The translations under genes and the position numbers were made by a program. Below, one piece after another: positions 22,254 to 41,000 of a stretch of 64,000 bases of DNA. Numbering within the stretch: position 1 is the first letter of the stretch; every line of letters starts with the position of its first letter. The notes under the pieces are model-generated. The model searched no databases, was not told where the DNA came from, and saw only the letters and a program-made list of their open reading frames with translations. Source of the DNA: Aotearoamyces nothofagi (taxonomy: Eukaryota > Ascomycota > Leotiomycetes > Leotiales > Tympanidaceae); contig JADDTR010000022.1 of NCBI GenBank assembly GCA_015345905.1, forward strand, positions 467,817-531,816, in the 5' to 3' direction.

Positions 22254-25200
22254 TCAAATACTCGTAATTGCCGCACTCGTAATTGATGCACTCGCAACGG
22301 CGCTCCAGTCCATTGGAGAGTACGGAACTTGACTCGCAGAAGTCGAGTCCCCATAAACACTGATAAGAAGAGCCCTGACGTCGTCCGTTATGGGTTGGAA
22401 ACTAGCCACAGCCTTTGCTGCCGTGCTCGTGCGTGTGCCCAAGGATCTCCTAACAGCGGTTCCCTCGGTACCTGGCCCCAAGGACCTCTTATCTGCGACT
22501 CCCATCCCAACACATGATAGTTCAGGCCCGCCAGCTGACACGATAGCTCGCTCGACACACCCAGATTTGATGATAATTGGGAGATAGAAATGCACATAGG
22601 CTTCCGTTGTGTCTGTAGCATCAACGTAAGACCACCCAGTAAGAGCACCACAGCCTTTCTCCTGCTTCTTAAGCGCTGCTCCATCATCAGTAGACCAGTC
22701 TACTATGTTGTAGATTTCGAACTGGTAGGCAAAAACAGAGTCCCAAAAGGCGCAGTCGGCAGCAGGTGTTGGCGTTGGCGTAGGTGTGACTGTGATTGTG
22801 ACATCCGGGAGTGTAGTTGTGGTTACTGAAACAGTAGTTGGAGTGGTACTAGTGCTGGTAGTACTAGCTGGGAACACTGCAAGCCAAAGTGACTCGTCCG
22901 CAGCACCTACTGACTGTTTACTGAATTAGTATCTAGTATTCGTTGCAAGGAAGAAATTGGTAGAGGTGAAGTGGCTGGAATTCGAGCTCGGTTAATAAGC
23001 ACAAGTTCTGGAGGTTGAGGAATAAAGAGATGGGATAATTACAGCCATATCTTCAAGTGAAGCCAGCGTGACGGAAAACGAGTCGCCATTGTCTGTGGCA
23101 TATAATACCGTTTCGGTATATGCTGTAGAAGAGCTGGATTTGCTTTCAGTCGAGGTAGAATCGTCATCGTCACCATCACCACTGTCATCATCATTACCAA
23201 AGGTATACGGTGGACAGAACGGGCAATCAGAGTCGCAGAATAAGAGACCTAGGTCACACTTATGTCAGTGGTAATTTAAACAAGCGATAATCAAGGACTG
23301 AACCTACAAGGAAGACCACATCCATCACATCCCGGCAGACTGGTTGGCTTCATCGGTGTCCCGGATGTCCAGGAAGGTGTTTTTGAATTTACTACGGGGT
23401 CCACCGTAGAAGGCACAGTCGTGGGATAGGGGTTAGGAGTGATAGTCATTACAGTCGGGCCTAAAGTGGTGCCGCCAATGATCGTCGTGCTTCCTCCTTC
23501 TGTTTCCGTTTTTGAAGGTTCTATATAAGTATAATCTCCCCAGATAACAGTTGTTCCTGGGTCGGTAGAAGTTGCAGTTGCGCCAATTATAGACGTAGTA
23601 CCGCTCATGACCCTAGACAGAAATAAAAAGGGTTATTTCTACTGCTGACGCTTGTATAAACTAGGAAGTAAAGTGAAAATAATGTAGCTTACGGTGTAAT
23701 AGTAATAGCGAAGGGTTCTGGCTGCACAGAACTTGTCAAGTAAAAAGTACCGGTAGTCGAGCTTGTGTCGAGGCTAACGCCCCAGACAGGGATGGCAGTT
23801 GTTGTAACTGGTTATCCAGACGTTGGGTTAGCATAGGGCCAGATGTGAGACATTCAATGAGCAAAGACTATAACGTACCTGCAGGAATACTGATGACTGT
23901 GACAATTGGCACATATATATACCACGGATACGTTGATGTTGAACCGTCTGTAAGGGTACTTGTAAGAGTCGTCAAACTTGAGTATGAGACTGTGGTAGTC
24001 AACAGAGGGAATGTAATTGTTGTTGTGCTACTAAGGGGCATCGGAGGCCAGACAAGTGTTACACCTGGCAGTGCAGTTATAAGGGGGGATACTGAACTCC
24101 AGATATCTGGATCCACATAGACAGTCTCGTTGGCTGATGAGCTGGACGAGGATGAAGATGAAGATGCACCACTACCATCCTCGGACTGTAAATCGACAGC
24201 CCAGTCCGATATTCCAAGGAAAGTGAGGCCTTCGTAGAGGAGCTTCCTTACCAGCTTGTTGGAATCATTCATGTAAGCAGCCCACTGGGTGTCGTTATAA
24301 ACAAGGATGTTTGAATATGAATCCTCATCCCAGAGGACCTCAGCTGTGGGATTCTGCGCAATAACCAAGTCAAGCTCATAGTCAGAGATGTATCCAGCAG
24401 TGTCAGTGCAGGGTCCAGGAAGTGCACCCGAGTCAGGCCCGACATATGTACACTGAGACGTCCAACAGCCAGCCGTGGTCATCTCAAAGGAGCGCCCGTA
24501 GCTGGAGACACCGACGGCTATCATGTTAGATGGGACACCGGCTTTGGTAATCATCGAAAGAGCAGTTATGGTTTCGGTCAGATTGATGTGGGACCGTAAA
24601 CAGTCACCGCCCCCTGCACACCCATCGTCTGCGTATGCATTGGTGTAGTCCCACTGTCCATGCAAATCTGTTTATTGTATTAGTATAAAGTTTTGATACT
24701 TATTTCGAGAATTCGGGATCTAAAGACATGACCAAAGAAGCTAGCTCTGAAACAAGTCTCAACAGCTCGGGTCTTCGAGAAAAAGAAAATTGTACGTAAC
24801 CAGAAGGCACAAGAAACGTACCGTAGGCCATTAACACAATGTAGTCGACTACTTCACTTATAGCCAATATGGGAAAATACTGGAGGTACCAGTATGAGGC
24901 TGGAGCAGTAATGGAGAGTGTCTTTCCCGCAGCATTGGCAGCCATACTAGTATGAAGTTCATCCAATAGTAAGAAGTAGCCGGTGCTGTCTGCCTCTGTG
25001 CCTGCCGGAATACCAGGAATATCCGGCTCGTCGGGGTACTCATAATCAATATCGCACCCATCAAGATTGTATTCATTTAAGAAAGCGATTATATTGCTGA
25101 TCACAGTTGCACGATTTGCTTCGGAACTTACGGCATCCCGAAAGATCATATAGGTAGCCGGATCGGCAGAGAAATCCCACCCCCCAATGGAGAGAATTCG

Positions 25201-27045
25201 CTTCACGCCTGTCAGAGCAGCTAGGAAGGGTAACTGGGTCTCTATAGTGCTTATGTTGACAGAGAAGTCGGTGTTGAGGGTGGCAAAGGCGAAATGGATA
25301 TGAGTATATACCGTGGTATCGACGTCTTCTACCGACATGGTCAAGCATGGTCTGGTCCAGTCAAAGCCTTCAAAGTATCCAATGGAGAAAAGCTCAGCAG
25401 GAGCATCAGACGCAACGATATCCGTCCCGCAGTTAGAAATGCAGCCGTTTTGCCCTGCTGCAGCCGTGCCAGGAGCACCAGTTGTCGAGTTGGAAATGGT
25501 GCAGAATTCTGCTGTCGTTCCACACTGGCCCCATATATCGCAGCAAGCGTTTAGTGGGCACTCGTTTAGGAGGCTCAAATCCGTTCCTTGGGGAGCGGTT
25601 GCGGTATCATTGACCTGCGGTCCACACACGGCGTTGGCAATCGTGGTAGGCATTGGGGGATAGCCACTGCTCAGACAAATATAGTACCCGGCATACAAGT
25701 CAGAGCAGCCATTCCAGCCCCAAGTGTCTGTGTTATAGGTATCAATGTCGTCGACGGTGATATCATAGGAGGCAGCAAGGGCTGAGCATGAATCACCAGT
25801 TACGACTAGGTACGAATAGCAATTTCCATCTGCATCCGGTTGCGGTGTGTTGTCGGGGAGCGTCCCATCGCTGCAGCAGACATACTCCCCCACGGCCAGT
25901 GTGGAACATTCAGTTGAGCTTGGGTTGTAGTCAGTAAACTCTGCTGCCGTAATTCCACACTCCGCAGCAAGTGTTTCACATGTGTCTCCAGATACCACTT
26001 GGGCAGTGGTGCATGTGTCACGTGAAGACAATTTCCGGCTACGGTCATAGCGTTGAGATCGCCTTGCCAGCATGGTCGAGTTGCTAGCTGTACTATTGAT
26101 TCCGTCATCCAATGGAGATGGAACGAGAAAGGTGACGTTTTTCCAGGCTAGGGTAGTTTCACCCGTGGAAGTAAGACAGCTGCTGTTCTTCCACGACTGG
26201 ACAGAAAGCTGAGCAAAGGAGAGATCGGCGTTGGTGTTGACCACTATTCCTAGGGAGTACCTGGCTGTACGGTTCTCGCAAAGCTGGACCAGGACATTTT
26301 CGGAAACACCGCCATCGCTTTTGACTTGAGCAGCAAGTTGCTCAAGGACCGAAGTAATCACGCCTTGGCTGGCCAGTCCTGATCCAACATAAACACCAAT
26401 AGCGACGGTTCCGGAGTAGGCAAAATTGATTGTCTCATTGCAAGAAGCTCCAGATAGAGTGGAAAATGTTTGCAATTGCTCCAGGGCAGTGACCACATCA
26501 GCAACACCAGCCGAGGACGAAGAACCAGAAGAGGTCAACTGCAAGGGGGACGTCACTTCCGTCTGATTCACGCTGCTTGACTGACATGTTGTATTGGTAG
26601 CTGTCGACACGGCGCTATCGACTGATTGCAAGTCCGCGGTACACGCAGCAATACTGATATGCGTGTTGGGGTCGTCGAGCTGGTTGAACAAGGCAAAATC
26701 GAGCAGCATAGTACTGTTGCACAGATCGAGACGGTTGATACTGTGATAAACAAACCATTCCGCAGAATCGACGCCAGCACTGCTGCAACTCGAAGGACAA
26801 CGACTTCTTGTTGCATCAGACAATTTGGAGGTATAATTGCCAGCTATGACCGCGGCTCTGAGTGCTGCTCGGTCCGTTGTTGCTTGTGCGGCTGGTGCAG
26901 AGCGAGTGGTGAATGGTGCTTTACTTAAATATGCCTCCAAAGAATTGCTGGCTGCTGCGAGTGCGTTGGCGTCAATGACCAGAGCCCCTTGAACGGACCA
27001 AGTGGCCACCATAAAAATGGCAATTGCCAATATAATTTGTCTCAT
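22254..27045 (-). CDS. Secreted GH18 chitinase with LysM and ChtBD1 domains
   Basis: Six exons on the minus strand: 27045-24822, 24667-23879, 23807-23693, 23612-23308, 23248-23043 and 22913-22254, giving 1432 residues. A signal peptide (to about residue 20) precedes a 300-residue Cys/Ser/Thr-rich region. Then come LysM 1 (about 345-391), LysM 2 (about 409-457), a hevein-type ChtBD1 (about 474-515, CPLNACCDIWGQCGTTAEFC) and the GH18 barrel (from about 551). The catalytic signature DGCDIDYE is at 662-669, with E669 the expected acid/base, and MAYDLHGQWD is restored across the first splice. A long Ser/Thr-rich linker leads to a C-terminal Cys-containing domain. This is the subgroup C chitinase layout: the enzyme cleaves beta-1,4 GlcNAc chains while the LysM and ChtBD1 modules hold chitin. 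It is divergent from the metalloprotease gene at 28722. Confidence 0.9.
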
Positions 27046-27100
27046 GGCGAATGGTGAGTGCAACGTGTAGGAGCGAGCAAAGCAGACCGACTCCAGCAAT

Positions 27101-27110
27101 ATATATAAAG
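27101..27110 (-). promoter_or_regulatory. TATA-like box of the chitinase gene
   Basis: On the minus strand this reads CTTTATATAT, about 57-65 bases before the chosen ATG at 27045. The position supports that start over the in-frame Met codon at 27198, which lies upstream of the box. Confidence 0.45.
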
Positions 27111-28721
27111 AAACAAAAGTGTGCAAGTATCTGCCACCAAGCTCGAGGCAGAGGTAGAAGGACAAACAACAAGAGAGAACAGGAGTTGGGCAAGTCAACC
27201 TCTCTTCCCAGACATTGCGGTAGCAAGATACTTGCGGGCCCTGGCTCCACTAGAGAATTGGTTATACATGCTTGCTCCGTATGAGGAAGCTCTTGCAACA
27301 TCTTGCTTGATCTTTCCAAACACGAATTCAGCCGGGAAATAAGGAGCAGCTGGAATCCAGCCCTGTTAGGAAGCTGTTCAAAAGAAGGCCCGTTTAACAG
27401 AAGGCCTGTTAGATAGGTGGTCTGTTCAATATTCAACATTGCTCACCCTGGTCAAGGTGGTAACTCCATATACGAGTCCTCGGAGTCCTCGCCGCCTTTC
27501 TCAGAAATCCTACTGACGCTAGATTGCCGGCTAGGCCCGTGATTTCCCGTCCGTTCTAACCCCCTGACCTTTAAAACATTAGTTTAGGCTTCTCAGAAAG
27601 GCGTACTTTGATCTCCAGTTACAGCGCAAAATATAGCACGGCGTTCACTAGGCTTGGATTAAATTGAGCATATCCGGAATTGGATGAAGACTTGGATACA
27701 GGACCATTATGGGGGGGTACAGTACTCAGTTTCTGGTGTTTCTGCCTGCCGAGGAACTACGCAGTATAATCCCAAGGGCTTTGTGACGCTGTACCGGACT
27801 CTTTCTCGAGCCACTCCATTATTTGAGAGCTGGCGGAGAAGACGTCAGGCGGCGATTGACGTAAGCGGTAGACCCACCAAGTATTAGAATTCCGCGTTTA
27901 ATTACAGTAGCCATCTACCCCAGCTAACGGCTACGATAATAACGCCACAGCCAAACCCTCCAGTTTACAAGGTTAAGGTATTCAGGGGGGGGGGCGGATA
28001 GTGCTACAGGCCATCCATTTGGCGCCAAAGGATTTGCTCATGTCCACTAGTGGAAATGCAGGACTCTACAGCAAGGGTCGCTGTTAGATCTAGCTCGAAA
28101 AGATTGAATAGATCGATCAGCCGCGCTACACGACGCAGCATGCACTTGCCACAGGGCAAAACCTGCACGTGAGAACAGGTCAAAGAGCGAAGCTAGATCT
28201 AATATCCCGTAGCGGCTATGCGCGTATTTAGCCGGCTGGCCTGCGTTGAGGATCATGCTGGGAGCGATTGCGATTGCATGGCGCCTCGGAAACCCCATTC
28301 TCGCCCTCCTCCGTACGCCTAGAGCACACTGTGCAGCATATGTCGGGTGCTTACTGGGGGAGGGCGTCACGGGGGTTCCTGAGTTTGCCGGCTAGGCTCC
28401 AATATAATCCTACTCGCCATTGTAGCATCTGACAAATACTAGATGCTTTCAGGGGGGCTATAGCTAACGGTCAAGTGTAGGGTAGGTTGGGCCTTTTCCT
28501 CCTTTTCCACTCGCGAGCAGGGCGAGTAGCCTACATGGTTGTTCTGGGATTGGTGCAGCAAGAGAGATTCTCCCGAGCCTGCCCATAATATCGACTTTCG
28601 TTTGGGCATAGGTTATCATCCCAAGGCCATCATCTCTCCTCTCATACCCGTCTTCCTCGCCCTTCTTCATGCTCGCATCGTTTCTCCCCTTCGTCGATTC
28701 TGATGCAAGGCCTACTTCGTT
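27111..28721. other. Divergent promoter region, no gene
   Basis: A 1.6 kb spacer between the divergently transcribed chitinase and metalloprotease genes. I see no protein-like frame. A run of G at about 27985-27995 and short C/T-rich stretches near the downstream start are the only features. Confidence 0.5.
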
Positions 28722-30058
28722 ATGCTCTTTCCCAAGATGTATCTCTCTCTCAGAGGTCTACTGACATTCATCCTTCTACTTGATGTCGGCACCACTTCTC
28801 CGGTAAAAGATTGGCAAGATCTTGCCTACCTGAACAAAACTCTTGTTCGTCGCGCGCCTTCGGCTTCGACCCTCTTCACCTTAGGAGGTTGTTCTACAGC
28901 TCAAGAAGCAACCATCGATGCTTGGATTGCAGAGATAACCTTGCTACATAATGCGGCGACGGCGGCGTATGCGAACACGGATAGTGATTTGGTAGGAAAC
29001 CTGATGCAACTTGAATGGATAATGGGCATCCGATGGAATTCGGATTCGACACCTACAGATACAGGTTCTGACAGTCTATGGAGTAATATTGGAGGTACCT
29101 AAGTTCTCCCCTATCTGCGCTGACTCTAGATTTATATTAACTCTGATAAACAGTTCGTCTAGCAGCGGTCTCCAAGCTCCTCAACGGAGGCGGCCTGGCT
29201 GGTTCAACGACTGGCAAGCCTCCGTATCTGTTTTGTGGGGATTCTTTTGCTACCTACGCTCCATGGAACCAGCCTGTCCAGAACGCGCTTGGAGAGTCCG
29301 TCCCCAGTTCAGACGGCAGTGGCAACGTCCTCACAGTTGCAGAGGTCTTTCCATCAAAAGAGGCACAAGGCGGCCACCTGCCCTTCTGGGTATCTGTTTT
29401 GAAGGGCTACATGTTCGATTCTAACGGAGCCACCACGTTGTGTGGAAAGGCGTCCCTTTACGCGGCCACCACCATACCATCAGCCCCAAGTGAAGTAGGG
29501 ACCGTGAAAACTGGTACATTTGACAGATTTTTCTGGTTCTGCCCACGAGGGTTTACTCCAATGGTGGCAAACAATGGAGCGACAGTCACAAGTCAGTCGC
29601 CTCATTCAGCAGCTCTTCTCTCCACCGCAGTCACATATGACGGGTATCCTAGTGCCGGTACTCGTGTAGGGCTGGATTCATTAGCACCTATCAGTTGCAC
29701 ACTCTACCACGAACTCTTCCATCTGACTGATGTCGCGCAAACTACTGGGGATCCGTATAGTAGGTCCTTTCCATTTATCTCCTTTCCGGCCCGTCCTCTT
29801 ACAATCGGAGCCGGACCAACTGCACAGCATCTACTAATTTGAACCTTGATATTTCTAGTTAAGACAGAGGATATTTATGACGCGGGAGAATTTGCTGCTT
29901 CAAATATTGCTGATAACCCCGAGTCTTATGTTCTGTTCGCACTTGCCTCGTACATCTACAGTAATCCGCCCGAAGGTACCCCAGAAAAGCCAGCGGTCGT
30001 GTTTCCTGGGGGATTCTCGAAGACTGTGGATGAAGTCATGGACGACGACGATGATTGA
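28722..30058 (+). CDS. Secreted HExxH zinc metalloprotease (deuterolysin/M35-like)
   Basis: Three exons: 28722-29094, 29154-29759 and 29859-30058, giving 392 residues. A hydrophobic leader (LRGLLTFILLL) marks it for secretion; translation could also start five codons later at 28737. The zinc motif HELFH lies at residues 310-314, with E311 as the catalytic base. After the second splice the protein continues DPYIKTEDIYDAGEFAASN and then NPESYVLFALASYIY, a pattern seen in secreted fungal lysine-specific or deuterolysin-like metallopeptidases, where an Asp supplies the third zinc ligand. I cannot fix the family with certainty. It ends in a short run of Asp. The donor GTAGGT at 29760 keeps the frame, whereas the neighbouring GTCCTT donor would create a stop. 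Confidence 0.8.
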
Positions 30059-31142: not shown

Positions 31143-32988
31143 ATGATGCTCTTCCGCCTCATCTCTTCAGCACTGGCCGTCCAGCTGGTTGGAGCTTACT
31201 TGGTGTCTCCTGACGGCACCGCGGCCCCGGGGACAATCAGTACCTGCAGTGACTGGGTTCAGGATTCATACGCCCTAACTTGTACCCTCATCGAGGAGTA
31301 TTTTGGAATAACAGCAGAGGAATTTGAGTTATGGGTGAGTGTTTGTTGTTCTCTCTTTGTGCTTGTATATTCCATGGATCTTCAATTTCTAACTCGAGTA
31401 GAACCCCACCACGACGGAACTTGGCGCCGACTGTACTCTAATATCAGATCTATATTACTGCGTGGCAATCAATTATGGTGCTGTGTCTACACCCTCGAAC
31501 TACCTGCCATCAACTTTGTCCACGATGATTATTCTACCCTCAACAGCAACAGCAACAACGACCTCAACAGCTGTACCTGCTACGATAACAACTTCAGCCA
31601 GCTCTTCATGCACTGGTGTTGCTGTAGCGTCGCCAACGCCATCTGGCGCTGTGTGCGATGTGCAGGCTGATTCTGTCAGCCTCACAGGAGCAGGTACGCT
31701 TATTGCCTATGCTTCTGGAAGTCCTTATGTAGCAAGCATCGAAGCTTGCGCTGCCGAATGTATAGCAACTGCTACCTGTACAAATATCTATTTTGTAGCC
31801 GGAGCTAACTGCAACTTGCACTACGGACCAATTTCGTATACAATCAATACCAGTGGGGTGAATGCATATAGCCTCTACGATGTTTCCTGTTTCACCACTT
31901 GCGCTACAAGCACTACAAGCACTACAAGCACTATAAGCACTATAAGCACTACAAGCACTACAAGCCCTACAACGACCACACCAACAACGACCGGCAATGG
32001 AATCACTACTCCTACACCATACCAAACAGGCATGGCAACGAATTGTGATAGTTTCCACTTAGTTGTTAGTGGAGATGAGTGCGGTACTATTGCTACTGAT
32101 GCTGGAGTCTCGCTCGCTGACTTCTACGCGTGGAACCCAGCCGTTGGTACAACGTGCGAGTTTTTGGATCTGGGCGATTATGTCTGTATCGATATCGTTG
32201 GGGTGACACCGACTACGACTTCGAGCGGCAATGGCGTCGCAACTCCTACGCCATACCAAACAGGCATGGCAACAAACTGTGATAGTTTCCACTTGGTAGT
32301 TAGTGGAGATGAGTGCGGTACTATTGCTACTGCTGCTGGAGTCTCGCTCGCTGACTTCTATGCTTGGAACCCAGCCGTCGGTTCAACATGCGAGTATCTA
32401 GACCTAGGAGACTATGTCTGTATTGGATTAATACCGACGACCTCTTGCACATCGGCTTCTGTCTTAGCAGCCCCAACAGAATATGCATCTACTTGTGGCG
32501 CATATGGATTCTCAGATGACACGACAGTTTCACTATTACTTGTCTCGTATACTGCCGGTAGTCCCTACGTTGCAAGCGCGGCTGCTTGTGGAGCGCAGTG
32601 TCTAGCTAATACTGCTTGTACTAACCTTTATTTTACGGAAGGGAGCTACTGTAACTTGCATGAAGAGACAAGCACATTCACAGCGAGCACTTCAGCTGGT
32701 TACTTCTCGTGGTATGAGGCGGATTGTTTTTCAACTGGGGAAGCATGTGGCTCATTTGGGTTTTCAAATGATGTTACCAGTACACTAATTATCTCGTATA
32801 CTTCGGGTAGTGCATATGTGGCAAGTGCTGCTGCGTGTGGTGCAGGGTGTCTGTCTACAGCCGCTTGCACAAATGTCTATTTCATAGAAGGAGAATATTG
32901 TAATCTGCACTCTGGAAAAACCTCATTCACTGATAGCATCTCAGCTGGCTACTTCGCTTGGTACCAGTATGACTGCTTTGAATGTTAG
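31143..32988 (+). CDS. Secreted LysM protein with three Cys-rich PAN-like modules
   Basis: Two exons, 31143-31334 and 31402-32988, giving 592 residues. I start at 31143 ([18 protein letters not shown]), which gives a good signal peptide; the in-frame ATG at 31065 would bury it. Order of modules: LysM 1 at about 34-87, split by the intron; a Cys-rich module at 149-227 ending NCNLHYG...YDVSCF; and a Thr/Ser linker made of a 9-base tandem repeat. Then come LysM 2 at about 277-328, LysM 3 at about 355-406 and two more Cys-rich modules at about 428-506 and 512-592 (each with AACxxxC, CTNxYF, YCNLH). LysM modules bind chitin oligomers. The Cys-rich modules resemble PAN/apple-like folds, but that is only a pattern guess. 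LysM 2 and LysM 3 are almost identical. It could act as a chitin-shielding effector or as a wall protein. Confidence 0.85.
31905..31968. repeat. 9-base tandem repeat inside the LysM gene
   Basis: Copies of ACTACAAGC or ACTATAAGC in frame, coding for TST and IST triplets that form the linker between the first Cys-rich module and LysM 2. The unit is a multiple of three, so copy-number change keeps the frame. Confidence 0.85.
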
Positions 32989-33353: not shown

Positions 33354-36325
33354 ATGTCTTGGAAATTGGCTAAGAGTATATAAAAATCCTCTCTTCTTCC
33401 GTCCTCAATGGCAATATGTGCTTTGTCACCGCTGGCTTATTGAGACATCGGGTGTAGCGACGCAAGACAACTTCCATAGGCTGATATTCTACCACAGAAA
33501 CCGAGGAGACCTCGGCGCCCGGGCCAGATGTACAGGACAGTAAAGCTATTTCCGCTAATGACAATAAAAGTGGTACGTAATCCACACCGCGTGCTTAGGT
33601 CTTGCTAAACTTCCCAGCCTCTCCCGAGATTCTTCCAATACAACTGCGGAATCAGCCTCGATGTGGTATTTTGACTGTTACCCTTTACGAAGGGGCTGGT
33701 CTCTCCGTTGCAGACAGATACAGCGATGTGTTCCGCAGGCTTGAACGCGAGCCTAACTGGGAGGACGAGGAATTCAGAATACAGAGCACTGGCGGCTCAC
33801 CCTTCAACCACCGATTCTTACCTTACGCCCTTTTAGATTTTGAGAAGTCGCAAGTGGTTGTCGAATCAGTTTCTGGAACTACTAAAAATCCCGTGTGGGC
33901 AGGAAACAAGACTTCGTACATGTTTGATGTTTCTAGGGTTGCTGAGTTGACGGTTTATCTTTACCTCAGGAGCCCAATAGCTTCCGGGGGAAATCAAGAT
34001 TTTTTCCTCGGTGCCACAAAACTGAATCCCTGGGCCGACGAAAGTCACCAATACGTTAGAAACCCTAACTTACAGAAGAAAAATAATTCTACTGCAGAGT
34101 TGACTCGAGAAGAAAAGACTTCCGATACAAAATGGTTGGACGTTCGAGATGGCACGGGGAAAATTCGTATCGGGGTTGAATTCGTGGAGCATATGCCACC
34201 GAGAGTGGGCGACTTTGACGTATCGGACTATGTTGACTCTATAAAGCTTATTGGAAACGGTATTGCGGGAACCGTGTCCAAGGTCAGGACGAAGCGGACA
34301 GAACGATTTTACGCTTTTAAGCAACCTCAAGGGGGGTATAATTACATGCCTGAAGTAGATCCCATCCTCGTTTCTGGGATCAACAACCCGTTTATCGTAC
34401 CGCTCACGCATGTTTTTCAAAAACCAAACAGCTTATTCCTCTTCTCACCATTCGCCAGGGGCGGACACCTTTTCTACCACCTTCAGAAGGAGCAACGTCT
34501 CAATGTTAATAGGTCGAAATTTTATACCGCTGAGCTTCTTTGCGCATTCGACTGTTTGCACGATTTCAACATAGTTTACTGCCACTTAAAGCCGAAAAAT
34601 GTACTTCTAGATACTTTAGGGCATATTGCTTTATGCGATTTCGGTCTCTACATGTCAAAGACAAGGGCGGTTCAAGAACTATCAACGCTAGAGTATCCAG
34701 CTCCCGAACTGCTCCTCGGTCAAGGTCTTACCAAGTCAGTGGATTGGTGGACATTGGGAGTTTTTCTCTACGAAATGTTAACAGGATTACCCCCGTTTTA
34801 CGATGAAGACTCTAATGAGAAACACCGCAAGATTCTCTCCGAACCCCTCAACTTCCCCGGGCCAAATATCATTCCCCCAACCGCCAGAGATCTCTTAACC
34901 AAACTTCTCGATCGCAAACCCGAGCAGAGACTGGGAGCGAACGGGTCCTCTGAAATCAAAAGTCATCCATTTTTCCAAGGCATAGATTGGCACAAGATTC
35001 TCCAGAAAAAATATGAACCCACCTTCAGGCCCAACGATGTTGCAGAGATCTTTCGAGAAGAAGCACGCTCCACGAGCGCTACTTGGAGAAAGCGCTTCAA
35101 AGGATTTTCGTACGCTCGACCAAAAGGCAGTATCGAGAGCAAGAGTGAAAACAACCCTTCGGCCAAGGACTCAACTCTAGTCGATGACCACAACGAATCC
35201 AGCGCACTCCCGGGCAAAGAGGTAGCAGAAGGGCCCGCACTGCCAGACGAAGCCAATCTCTCTCTTCCCTCCCCATCCCCTCAAGTAGCCATAGAGAAAG
35301 ATGACGGATGGACGTTGATATGGGAAGAGGCCGCCCAGGCGTTCCACTTCTACAATCACTTCACAGGTGCAATAGAATCAGCCAATCCTCGGGTCCCAGA
35401 CCCTGTAGCGCCTGGCGTCGAAGTCAGACCGGTTCTTACAACACCAAATCCTCAAGAGACTGCACCTCACGATGGTTCTCCTACAGTGCACACTTTGCCT
35501 AGCCAAACCCAGATGCGCGATGCACTTGAGGTAGCATTAAATGCCGGATATCAACATGTGGTCCCACAATTATTAAAATGCGGCATGGACTTGAACATCA
35601 AACTATTTGGTGGCTCGCAGACACCACTGGAATGGGCTACCGAACATGAAAATCTCGGTCTGGTAGAATTGGTTCTTGAAAAAGGCGCTGACGCAAATTT
35701 TACGTCCGCTGCATTCACCAGAAATCCAGCCTTAATAAGGGCAGTAGAGAAAGGGAATCAGGAGTTAGTCAAAGTTTTAGTGCCGAGAACCAACCGTGTA
35801 CTCTCTACTAGAGCTCTATGTCTCGCTGTGGATCAACAGGACAGCCCGATTGTCGACCTCTTGCTAGAACATGGCGTCAGTTGTGACTTCGTTAAAGGAG
35901 ATCGACCTCCCCCTATAGACTCTCAGAAGGACGGCTGGCGTATCAGTGAGTCAGCAGAGGCAAAGGAATTCATACCCCCCCTCGTCCGAGCAGTCATTTT
36001 AGGAAACACAGACCTGGTACGGGTGCTGCTTGTGAACGGGGCAGATGCTAACGTTGGTTATCATGACCTTGTCCGTAGTCATGGAAGGCATTTGAAAACA
36101 TACATGTGTTGCGGAAGAGCTGTACAGGTAGCGATGGAGCTACAACGCCAGGAGATAGTTGACATGTTACTTGAATCCGGCGCAGACATTAGTCTTCCAC
36201 AACCCGTCTGGCTATACCATGGATGTCCAGGTACACCGAGGGATGTATATCTTAGGATTACGTCGGGCTTACGGACTGCAGCGGCAACACTGGAGCAAAG
36301 AAAAGAGGGCAGAGAGAGTAGCTAA
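33354..36325 (+). CDS. Ypk1/YpkA-derived C2 - pseudokinase - WW-like - ankyrin protein
   Basis: Three exons by my reading: 33354-33375, 33498-33572 and 33618-36325, giving 934 residues. The first exon codes MSWKLAK, which resembles the start of YpkA-type kinases. The 45-base second intron contains a branch-point-like TGCTAAAC. A C2-like region (about 45-225, PYALLDFEKSQVVVESVSGT) leads to an AGC kinase domain (about 238-485). The ATP-binding Lys is kept (K267), as are the glycine loop (GNGIAG) and CDFG (D373). The catalytic Asp of YRDLKPEN is His (YCHLKPKN, H355), the activation-loop TFCGTPEY is QELSTLEY with the phospho-Thr replaced by Gln, and helix C is shortened. A hydrophobic motif FKGFSY survives at 526-531. 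Then come a WW-like segment (about 596-626) and ankyrin repeats to about 890. I expect an inactive scaffold-type kinase. Exons 1 and 2 are less certain than exon 3. Confidence 0.82.
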
Positions 36326-38005: not shown

Positions 38006-41000
38006 ATGGCACAGAAGAGATTCGAGCATATTGCTCCACGATCAGATGGCCACGAGGCTGGGAATTTGACAAGGCTGCCGGCTGAGGCTGTTACACAGAT
38101 AGCTCCTGAGAACGGACCGCTTATTCATATAATTGATATTCGCCACAATGCCATCGAACTTGACTTGAAGAAAGAAATCATGACAATGTTGCAGCCCGAG
38201 AAAGGGCCTAAGCAGATGCCTACGTTGCTGCTCTATGATGAGAGGGGACTGCAACTCTTCGAAAAGGTACCCGATGCCAAGTAGCACAATAGATTTGACG
38301 CTCACGACCATCAGATAACATACCTGGACGAATATTACCTGACCAATGCTGAAATCGACGTGCTGAAGAGGTCGGCTCGCCAACTTGCACAGAACATCCA
38401 GTCGGAATCGATGGTCGTTGAGCTGGGTAGCGGGTGCGTCCAAATACTAGCGCGTAGTGGGCAACCGTAGACGTTGCAACTAATGCGAGTATAGAAATCT
38501 CCGAAAGGTGAGTATCCTGCTGGAGGCTCTGGAAGCTGCTGGGAAGGACATCGACTACTACGCCCTCGACTTGTCCTTGACGGAACTCCAACGCACATTA
38601 GCGGCTGTCCCAACTTTCAAGCATGTCAGATGTCACGGGTTGAACGGCACCTACACCGATGGTCTTTCATGGCTCAAGTCGGGCGCGGATCCTTCGCGAC
38701 CAAAGTGTATCATGTCTTTAGGATCCAGCATTGGTCTGGCAGCTCTGCTCCTTCTATCGCCGCTTACTGATTTGAACAAGGCAATTTCCGCCGTCATGAG
38801 GCGTCGTCATTTCTTAAAACCTTCTCTGATGTTCTACAACCGTGTGACTCTATGCTGATAGGTCTTGATGCGTGCAATGACCCTGCGAAGGTCTAGTGAG
38901 TACCCGTAAATTCCAGACTTTCCTACCTACCTAACCTCTCTGATTCCAGTCATGCATATAATGGTTAGTCCTACTGCACGGTCCTCAGGTCGCCACTGAC
39001 AAATCTTTACTGCAGATCGTGAAGGAGTAACGCACAGGTATTGTTTACTCTCTAAAGCAAGTGAACACCAGTTCACTTGGCTTACATCATAAAGTTTTAT
39101 CCTGAATGGCTTGGAGAACGCAAATAGCGTCCTCGGCCAGGAGGCGTTCAATGTGGACGACTGGAAAGTCATCGGCGAGTATGTATATGATGCTGATGGC
39201 GGCCGCCACCAAGCATTCTACTCGCCCAAGAAAGATGTCACCGTGAATGGTGTTCGGATCAGGGAAGGAGAGCGATTGCAGGTGGAGCAGAGCCTTAAAT
39301 ACTCGGAGCAGGAGATCACAGGACTGTGGAGTTTGGCAGGTCTGAAGGAAGTCGGGAAGTGGTCGGCGTCGACCCAGCCGTACAGTGAGTACCATTTACT
39401 ATGCTCCCTCCATCCGTCCCATGGCCCGTGTTGGCTGGAAGGCTGGAAGTGTGTCGAAGAGCCAGCCCGTCCGGAGAAATCACGACGCGGCGTAATTATC
39501 TCCCCTCATCAATTTCTGGCGAAAACCACCGACGGATTATCATTCACGAACTATACAAGCCAAGAAGCAGGGGGTGCATCCGAATATACTTTGGCATCCT
39601 CGATCGCACCCGCTTCACGGAATGTTGCCAAAACCTTAATTGCCCAGATAAGATACGGCCCTGGTCTGTCTGGGGCAATTATTTGTCAGTCCGGGTCATG
39701 CGCGGACCGACAGCCGCTTCCACATAAGCATCATAGACTTATTACTACATCACTGTTACGATCACCCTTTTCTTTATTACCCCGCATAGCATCCGTGCCA
39801 CAACATATCCATCTTTAAACTTTTCTTATATCCCACTCGCCACCACTGGCTTATTTTTTATTTTAGATATTCACATGTTGACGAAGCGAGAAATGCCTTT
39901 CCACCTCAACCCCTCACGGTATGCCGCTTCCACGGTTCCCACCATTGACGACTGGAGAGGGATGTGGGCGGCCTGGGACAGAGTCACGCGCGGTATGATC
40001 CCGGATGATAGATTACTGGATAGCCCAATCAAATTGCGCAATGCGTGTATTTTCTACCTTGGACATATCCCGACTTTCTTGGACATCCAACTCAACAAGG
40101 CGACCAAGGAGCCTTTATGCGAACCTTCGTATTATCCGTCGATTTTTGAGAGAGGGATTGACCCCGATGTTGATAATCCTGATAACTGCCACTCCCATTC
40201 CGAGATTCCCGAGAAATGGCCACCGCTAGAGGAGATTCTGGCTTACCAAGGTCAGGTGCGGAGGAAGGTGGAAAGGCTGTACGAAGACAAGGCGCCTGAC
40301 CATTCGAGGAAACTTGGTCGATCATTGTGGATTGATTTTGAGCATGAAGCGATGCATCTAGAGACCTTATTATATATGCTTCTCCAAAGTGACGAGACAC
40401 TTCCTCCACCACGAACGGTCAAGCCCGATTTCGAACAGGATGCTGAGCACGATGCAGCAGCAGCGGTGCCAAATGAGTGGTTCACCGTACCAGCACAAAC
40501 CATCACCGTTGGTCTCGACGACCCAGAAGATAATTCTGGGCCAGATAGCCATTTTGGGTGGTGAGCAACGTCACTCACTATTACTAGAAACGGCAGATGC
40601 TAAGTGAAATTACCAGGGACAATGAGAAACCGGTTCGAAAAGTTACTGTGCCATCATTTCAAGCTAAAGGACGGCCAATTACCAATGAAGAGGTAACTTC
40701 TTAATTCAAAGGACTCGTGAGATTTCGGACTGACCTGACTGGCTCCCAGTTTGCGACCTACCTAGATGCTACGGAGAGCGACCACATCCCTGCTTCATGG
40801 GCAGAACAGAAGGTAAACGGAGTGAAGACCAATGATGATGTCAATGGCCTCACGAACGGTCACGTGAATGGCGCAGCAACATTATCCAAGGGATATCTAG
40901 ACGGGAAATCAGTGCGCACAGTCTATGGCCTTGTTCCTCTCAGACATGCTCTCCACTGGCCGGTATTTGCCTCCTATGATGAACTGGCTAGGTGTGCGGA

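Follow-up and report, generated by a model that had tools for sequence, protein, structure and literature searches.

The protein described here probably belongs to a fungal family of non-catalytic chimeras, in which a kinase part of YPK type is followed by a WW-like segment and ankyrin repeats, and its sequence suggests that it works as a scaffold or adaptor without phosphotransfer. Its gene lies within the window, that is, the whole stretch of 64,000 nucleotides of Aotearoamyces nothofagi DNA that was analysed, and consists of three exons (Table 1) separated by an intron of 122 bp (GTATAT..ACAG) and another of 45 bp (GTACGT..CCCAG). The spliced three-exon product comprises 934 residues with the N-terminus MSWKLAKK; thus, the 934-residue protein starting with MSWKL that the initial annotation had proposed was reproduced, with three exons and GT..AG introns. 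The N-terminus encoded by exon 1 resembles that of the YPK encoded in the same genome (the own YPK), as well as those of the family members P0004 and P0015. Within the window, the open reading frame (ORF) from 33599 to 36325 runs uninterrupted for 908 codons with zero stops, and an Rfam search of the 64 kb returned zero matches.

Table 1. Features of the pseudokinase gene, with positions referring to the window.
Feature	Position	Strand	Remarks
Exon 1	33354..33375	+	Encodes MSWKLAK; based on reading frame and GT..AG
Exon 2	33498..33572	+	Based on frame and GT..AG
Exon 3	33618..36325	+	Carries all domains; stop codon 36323-36325
N-terminal region of YPK type ("C2-like" label unconfirmed)	33656..34198	+	ORF residues ~20-200
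AGC kinase domain, pseudokinase by sequence	34241..34975	+	
GGE Glu position	34466..34468	+	His
Catalytic-loop Asp position	34583..34585	+	His
T-loop Thr position	34673..34675	+	Gln
Hydrophobic motif FKGFSY	35096..35113	+	Retained; FDxEF tether upstream of it absent
Degenerate WW segment	35291..35392	+	Related to the WW protein L010 of the same genome
Ankyrin repeats and C-terminal helix	35504..36319	+	Pfam; helices at ORF residues 636-907 (AlphaFold)

Upstream of the pseudokinase gene, the window contains a gene for a protein with LysM, chitin-binding and GH18 chitinase domains (23871-27249, minus strand), one for a probable secreted protein whose HELFH motif, as judged by eye, might mark a metalloprotease (28700-30058, plus strand), and one for a LysM/PAN protein (31402-32988, plus strand) that ends ~0.4 kb before the pseudokinase start. 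The gene found downstream at 39093-40561 (plus strand) carries Methyltransf_33 and DinB_2 pieces, and we take it to be Egt1-like. Regarding clusters of LysM or chitinase genes with ankyrin kinases, the available portions of the literature describe only LysM genes often adjoining chitinases, in Trichoderma.

Pfam recognizes a Pkinase domain (E 4.8e-46) spanning ORF residues 215-459, as well as tandem ankyrin repeats between residues 674 and 819 (Ank_2, 67 bits versus a cut-off of 27.3). The WW-like segment gave no Pfam WW match at E<=1 and, by eye, has lost the second tryptophan (Ala here, Ser in the relative P0002), so that the Trp pair of the WW fold is incomplete. It is modelled by AlphaFold as three strands, and shows 57% identity over 47 residues (E 1e-14) to L010, a WW-type protein encoded at C21 of the same genome, for which the Pfam WW score is 25.7 bits (E 1.1e-05), slightly below the cut-off of 26.9; P0002, with 10.4 bits, also falls below it. 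The proposed fusion of a kinase to WW-like and ankyrin parts is supported by the sequence. Separate kinase and ankyrin genes were rejected as an explanation, since a single exon encodes both parts here and their order is the same in the full-length relatives listed. The C2-like label given to the N-terminal region was not confirmed: the Pfam search returned no C2 match there, AlphaFold shows strands plus some helices for residues 20-200, the top two Foldseek rows are full-length PKC-beta chains, and the structure rows checked for a C2 fold are kinase domains. The kinase fold in the AlphaFold model is the one expected from the alignment alone, and is no proof of folding.

Within the kinase part, the catalytic loop reads YCHLKPKN, with His in place of Asp, GTPEY has changed to STLEY, and helix C is shortened; together with the Gln replacing the T-loop Thr, these alterations, all of them reported in the initial annotation, are real. 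The beta3 Lys, the DFG Asp and the catalytic-loop Asn are retained, and the helix C Glu position, which lies within a gappy stretch, is occupied by Asp. Thus, the Lys/Asp/Asp triad expected for an active kinase reads Lys, His, Asp, and a kinase fold retained with its catalytic motif lost is that of a pseudokinase. The GGE Glu position is taken here as the equivalent of PKA Glu127, and the gatekeeper and hinge positions as those of PKA Met120 and Glu121. Regarding the C-tail characteristic of AGC kinases, the hydrophobic motif is present and FDxEF absent, and inspection by eye of the pseudokinase and P0002 revealed no Ser/Thr at the turn-motif place of these two proteins. FDxEF forms part of the ATP site in PKA, and mutating it lowers activity, according to the accessible part of the source (PMC3415842).

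Relatives were taken as the best 120 of 2047 matches plus the best 120 of 548, amounting to 212 distinct proteins, from which 44 (P0121 and P0136 among them) were excluded by hand, 43 of these being, by their Pfam annotation, truncated pieces or other ankyrin proteins with no kinase domain listed. The family (n=110) was defined as the 109 proteins above 50 bits with a WW-ankyrin part plus the pseudokinase, and the comparison set as 59 proteins, 60 with the own YPK. P0029, P0058 and P0062 were later reassigned to the family side, resulting in 113 versus 57 rows: P0029 because it carries the WW segment, P0058 because it carries the family linker, and P0062, which ends at the hydrophobic motif, from its placement in the tree alone.

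The catalytic Asp is present in 2 of the 110 listed family members, replaced by another residue in 105 and gapped in 3, whereas all 60 rows of the comparison set contain it. For the beta3 Lys the corresponding figures are 61/110 (4 gaps) versus 58/60, for the DFG Asp 36/110 (2 gaps) versus 59/60, and for the T-loop Thr 21/110 (17 gaps) versus 60/60. An intact K/D/D triad occurs in a single listed family member, P0002, versus 57/60 in the comparison set, where the rows without it are P0029, P0058 and P0062. The catalytic Asp was also found in 93/93 further canonical YPKs; the hinge pattern was matched in 92 of these 93, all 92 having the gatekeeper Leu, the hinge Ala and the GGE Glu, the latter being found in 0/107 listed inactive-clade rows having a residue there. 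The initial annotation had named an orthologue with intact YRDLKPEN as a sign of sequencing error or recent local loss, and one such relative was indeed encountered, P0002; yet it does not point to either, given that just two of the listed members have the Asp and that in P0002 the tether is missing, gatekeeper and hinge are changed and the WW-ankyrin fusion is already present, and both explanations were rejected. P0001, the closest relative among the listed matches, retains the Asp and has His instead of the beta3 Lys. Trp occupies the Asp position in 37/110 listed family members and, within a 35-row clade (support 98, 125-row tree), in 33/33 rows having a residue there, a uniformity suggesting that the replacement residue itself is held by selection.

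The FDxEF tether was found in 0/106 family tails examined (of 110 listed) versus 51/55 matched canonical tails, the tail pattern having matched 55 of 127 canonical tails. Family tails are 25-60 residues long, many of them equalling the canonical length (48) but without FDxEF, and the tails of P0058 and P0062, as printed, lack it as well. A looser tether pattern is fitted by FDVY/FDIY near the tail end in the Xylaria-type proteins P0164, P0165 and P0174, and by the hydrophobic motif itself in P0034 and P0130. In the own YPK, FDxEF lies after an intron that follows KPNV.

In the trees, the nearest relatives of the family outside itself are YPKs, indicating YPK/SGK descent, and the own YPK aligns at 57% over pseudokinase residues 59-482. 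The 125-row tree, obtained by a quick search, comprised 106/109 family proteins, 17/59 comparison proteins, the own YPK and the pseudokinase, with P0122 and P0129 (both short) and P0011 omitted; the 45-row trees contained 9/109 family proteins, P0029, P0058, P0062, the pseudokinase, the own YPK, 15 further Leotiomycete-type YPKs and 16 Sordariomycete ones. The own YPK (L009) groups with a Pseudogymnoascus YPK (P0097) at 99/95 in the 45-row tree, whereas in the 125-row tree the neighbours of the pseudokinase are Xylogone and P0001, and not the Pseudogymnoascus family members.

Canonical YPKs end near DPSFxSVQDN, as seen in the four tails compared, and P0002 and P0058 retain this YPK tail, which is then followed by a linker common to the pseudokinase. 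Moreover, P0002 matches L010 at 66% over 87 residues, extending past the WW through GGYDPAxHGDYDxTAWYAQ. Considering the retained tail, the shared linker and the L010 match, the family appears to be a chimera of a YPK, a WW fragment and ankyrin repeats; no donor of the ankyrin repeats was found. P0002 looks like a record of this origin, with a YPK frame that continues beyond the point where YPKs normally end, first into part of a WW protein and then into ankyrin repeats. Elsewhere in the genome, a YPK-like C-lobe fragment (L011 863-1162, minus strand; C26:283991-284122) that matches residues 443-486 at 66% looks like the relic of another YPK copy.

A putative path of catalytic loss can be deduced from shared changes. 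The gatekeeper Leu is replaced by Ser in P0058, P0062 and 85/110 listed rows including P0002, with P0029 having Leu; the hinge Ala is replaced by Pro in 93/110 listed rows, again including P0002, with P0058 and P0062 having Ala; and the GGE Glu gives way to His, Tyr, Pro and others in the inactive clade, with P0002, P0058 and P0062 retaining it. The minimum number of changes on the 125-row tree is 1 for the GGE Glu, 3 for the catalytic Asp, 7 for the DFG Asp and 17 for the beta3 Lys. The catalytic Asp persists in three proteins that have lost other residues, namely the beta3 Lys in P0058 and P0029 (both to Arg) and the DFG Asp in P0062 (to Gly), which suggests that inactivation took more than one route and that its order is not clean; the early steps, moreover, rest on few sequences, since P0058, P0062 and P0002 are each a single database cluster.

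Conservation was then compared along the protein. The pseudokinase is 71% identical to the own YPK over the C-lobe but only 37% over the N-lobe. Within the listed family, mean pairwise identity reaches 0.50 for the C-lobe and 0.47 for the ankyrin part, and amounts to 0.35 for the WW-like segment, 0.32 for the N-terminal region, 0.30 for the N-lobe, 0.19 for the hydrophobic-motif tail and 0.16-0.17 for the linkers, the value of the first linker being based on 541/5995 pairs only. The pseudokinase retains 143 of the 221 kinase positions that are >=98% conserved in 57 YPKs. Across the 113 family rows, the best-retained positions are structural, namely Gly413, Gly422 and Leu463 (1.0), the APE Glu (0.99), Arg470 (0.97) and Trp409/410 (0.96-0.97). 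The distribution of conserved parts points to a scaffold role: phosphate transfer would have been lost, the conserved C-lobe would hold a YPK-type partner (a substrate, a regulator or YPK itself), the conserved ankyrin part would hold a client, and the adaptor might thereby compete with YPK or bring two proteins together.

The initial annotation had seen in this gene a Ypk1/YpkA paralogue selected as a non-catalytic WW-ankyrin fusion, which the sequence supports, and had also suggested, as possibilities, a decoy role in TORC2-Ypk signalling and immunity-like sensing, neither of which gained direct support. Such a decoy or dominant negative would mimic YPK at TORC2 or Pkh kinases and titrate them, in line with the YPK ancestry seen in the trees and with the FKGFSY motif, whose retention in the pseudokinase leaves a link to TORC2 possible; the Sin1 CRIM domain binds Gad8 and SGK1, and the T504A variant of Ypk1 is inactive, as the consulted portion of the source indicates (PMC5618247). 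Nevertheless, considering that (i) the T-loop and the tail, targets of Pkh and TORC2 phosphorylation in Ypk1, are among the parts lost or most variable, the T-loop Thr surviving in few listed members and being Gln here, (ii) the turn-motif Ser/Thr is missing by eye from both the pseudokinase and P0002, and (iii) tail and N-lobe are far less conserved in the listed family than C-lobe and ankyrin part, scaffolding through the latter two fits better than mimicry of a TORC2 or Pkh substrate, and we regard the decoy role as unlikely.

The retained Lys, DFG Asp and Asn suggest that the pseudokinase may still bind nucleotide. Some kinases without a canonical residue are active, and these three residues, together with the intact triad of P0002, would also be compatible with an active kinase of unusual mechanism or with a nucleotide-binding switch. 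On the contrary, the pseudokinase lacks the catalytic Asp, the GGE Glu, FDxEF and the T-loop Thr and has Asp for the helix C Glu, and, counting gaps, the beta3 Lys is not seen in 49/110 and the DFG Asp in 74/110 listed family members, making catalysis or switching quite improbable. Still less credit is given to an intracellular sensor that would use the kinase part as bait in a fungal response to non-self or mycoparasites: the adjoining LysM/PAN and LysM-GH18 chitinase genes would suit it, as would the two or more copies that certain Trichoderma species have, by name, among the listed matches, but the ankyrin part, far from being hypervariable, is conserved, and Pfam found no effector domain in the pseudokinase protein.

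Neutral simulation of the own YPK to the same identity, over 458 aligned codons, gave 0/500 stop-free outcomes with a mean of 10.3 stops, which rules out a chance ORF or plain decay; by NG86, dN is 0.36 and dS = -1, taken as saturation. A pseudogene in early decay, which the fast-changing N-lobe, the lost second WW Trp and the shifting kinase motifs might evoke, is hardly credible against these simulations, the 908 open codons, the similarity to P0003 and P0001, which among the listed matches align along 98-99% of the length at 55-56% identity, and the well-kept C-lobe. The scaffold or adaptor stands as the preferred reading.

Where the listed matches carry an organism name, the family is represented in three classes: Leotiomycetes (Xylogone, Leptodophora), Sordariomycetes (Whalleya, Tolypocladium and, by name, Trichoderma and Daldinia) and Eurotiomycetes (Arthroderma, Talaromyces). 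The 45-row tree places the family inside the Leotiomycete YPK set, joining P0044 at 97/90, with Sordariomycete YPKs separate at 100/100; in these origin trees P0044 and P0055 were counted as Leotiomycete, and the other YPKs are presumed to belong to the classes that their names indicate. A 41-row tree without P0002, P0058, P0062 and P0044 gave the same placement with weaker inner supports (84/92 and 89/91). If the family is nested within Leotiomycete YPKs, the other classes would have acquired it horizontally. However, constraining Leotiomycete YPKs together yielded a p-AU of 0.091 (0.078 for the complementary split in the same test), and 0.161 without the same four proteins, values with which an older duplication followed by vertical descent is also compatible; furthermore, the sampled YPKs were Leotiomycete-type and Sordariomycete, none coming from Eurotiomycetes or Dothideomycetes, and long branches meet. 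A single assembly in a Leotiomycete, followed by stepwise loss (tether; gatekeeper and hinge; Glu; catalytic residues) and by horizontal spread to Sordariomycetes and Eurotiomycetes as a non-catalytic antagonist or re-wirer of the YPK pathway, is put forward as a rather doubtful scenario. If true, the chimera would be a brake that can pass from one fungus to another, acting on the essential YPK pathway in membrane and cell-wall signalling.

Pseudokinases have mostly been studied singly, after catalysis was already lost. The ~100 listed relatives, with the near-intact P0002 and the early branches P0058 and P0062, trace one possible route from an AGC kinase to the loss of its function after gene fusion, thereby opening this route to biochemical testing.

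Compared with YPK1, YpkA, Gad8 and SGK1, the pseudokinase is alike in exon 1, overall layout, C-lobe (as measured against the own YPK) and hydrophobic motif, and differs in the loss of the catalytic Asp, the GGE Glu, the T-loop Thr and FDxEF and in the added WW and ankyrin parts. By eye, its two 5' introns lie at places similar to those of the own YPK gene, whereas the intron that the latter has after KPNV is absent. Integrin-linked kinase also joins ankyrin repeats to a pseudokinase with a scaffold role, but it belongs to a different kinase group and has its ankyrin repeats at the opposite end. The term pseudokinase is applied to it in the portion of the literature at hand (PMC13266989).

USK1 of Trichoderma reesei is likewise a YPK1-type kinase, non-essential and not orthologous to YPK1, but its gene spans ~1.2 kb, and in the text available the word ankyrin occurs 0 times and nothing is said on catalytic residues (PMC7251307). 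Neither a YPK-WW-ankyrin chimera nor its catalytic loss was described in the mostly open-access literature searched. What is already known from these sources is that ankyrin-kinases are expanded in Trichoderma and that pseudokinase status has been raised for those of Aspergillus nidulans. Genes for an "ankyrin domain protein with protein kinase domain" number 6 in T. reesei, 8 in T. virens and 11 in T. atroviride versus 2.7 in other fungi (PMC3218866); by description only, they resemble the present family in combining ankyrin and Pkinase domains and in being expanded, and the part of that text at hand is silent on YPK origin, WW part and lost catalysis. Many of these mould genes may, we predict, encode non-kinases, in which case kinome tallies that include them among the kinases would have to be revised. 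The ankyrin kinases FfkA/B/C of A. nidulans, also compared by description, are filamentous-fungal proteins with ankyrin repeats and viable deletions; unlike the family described here, they are listed as unclassified rather than AGC, and the kinome study, in the portion available, asks whether Ffks are pseudokinases that compete for substrates (PMC3591445).
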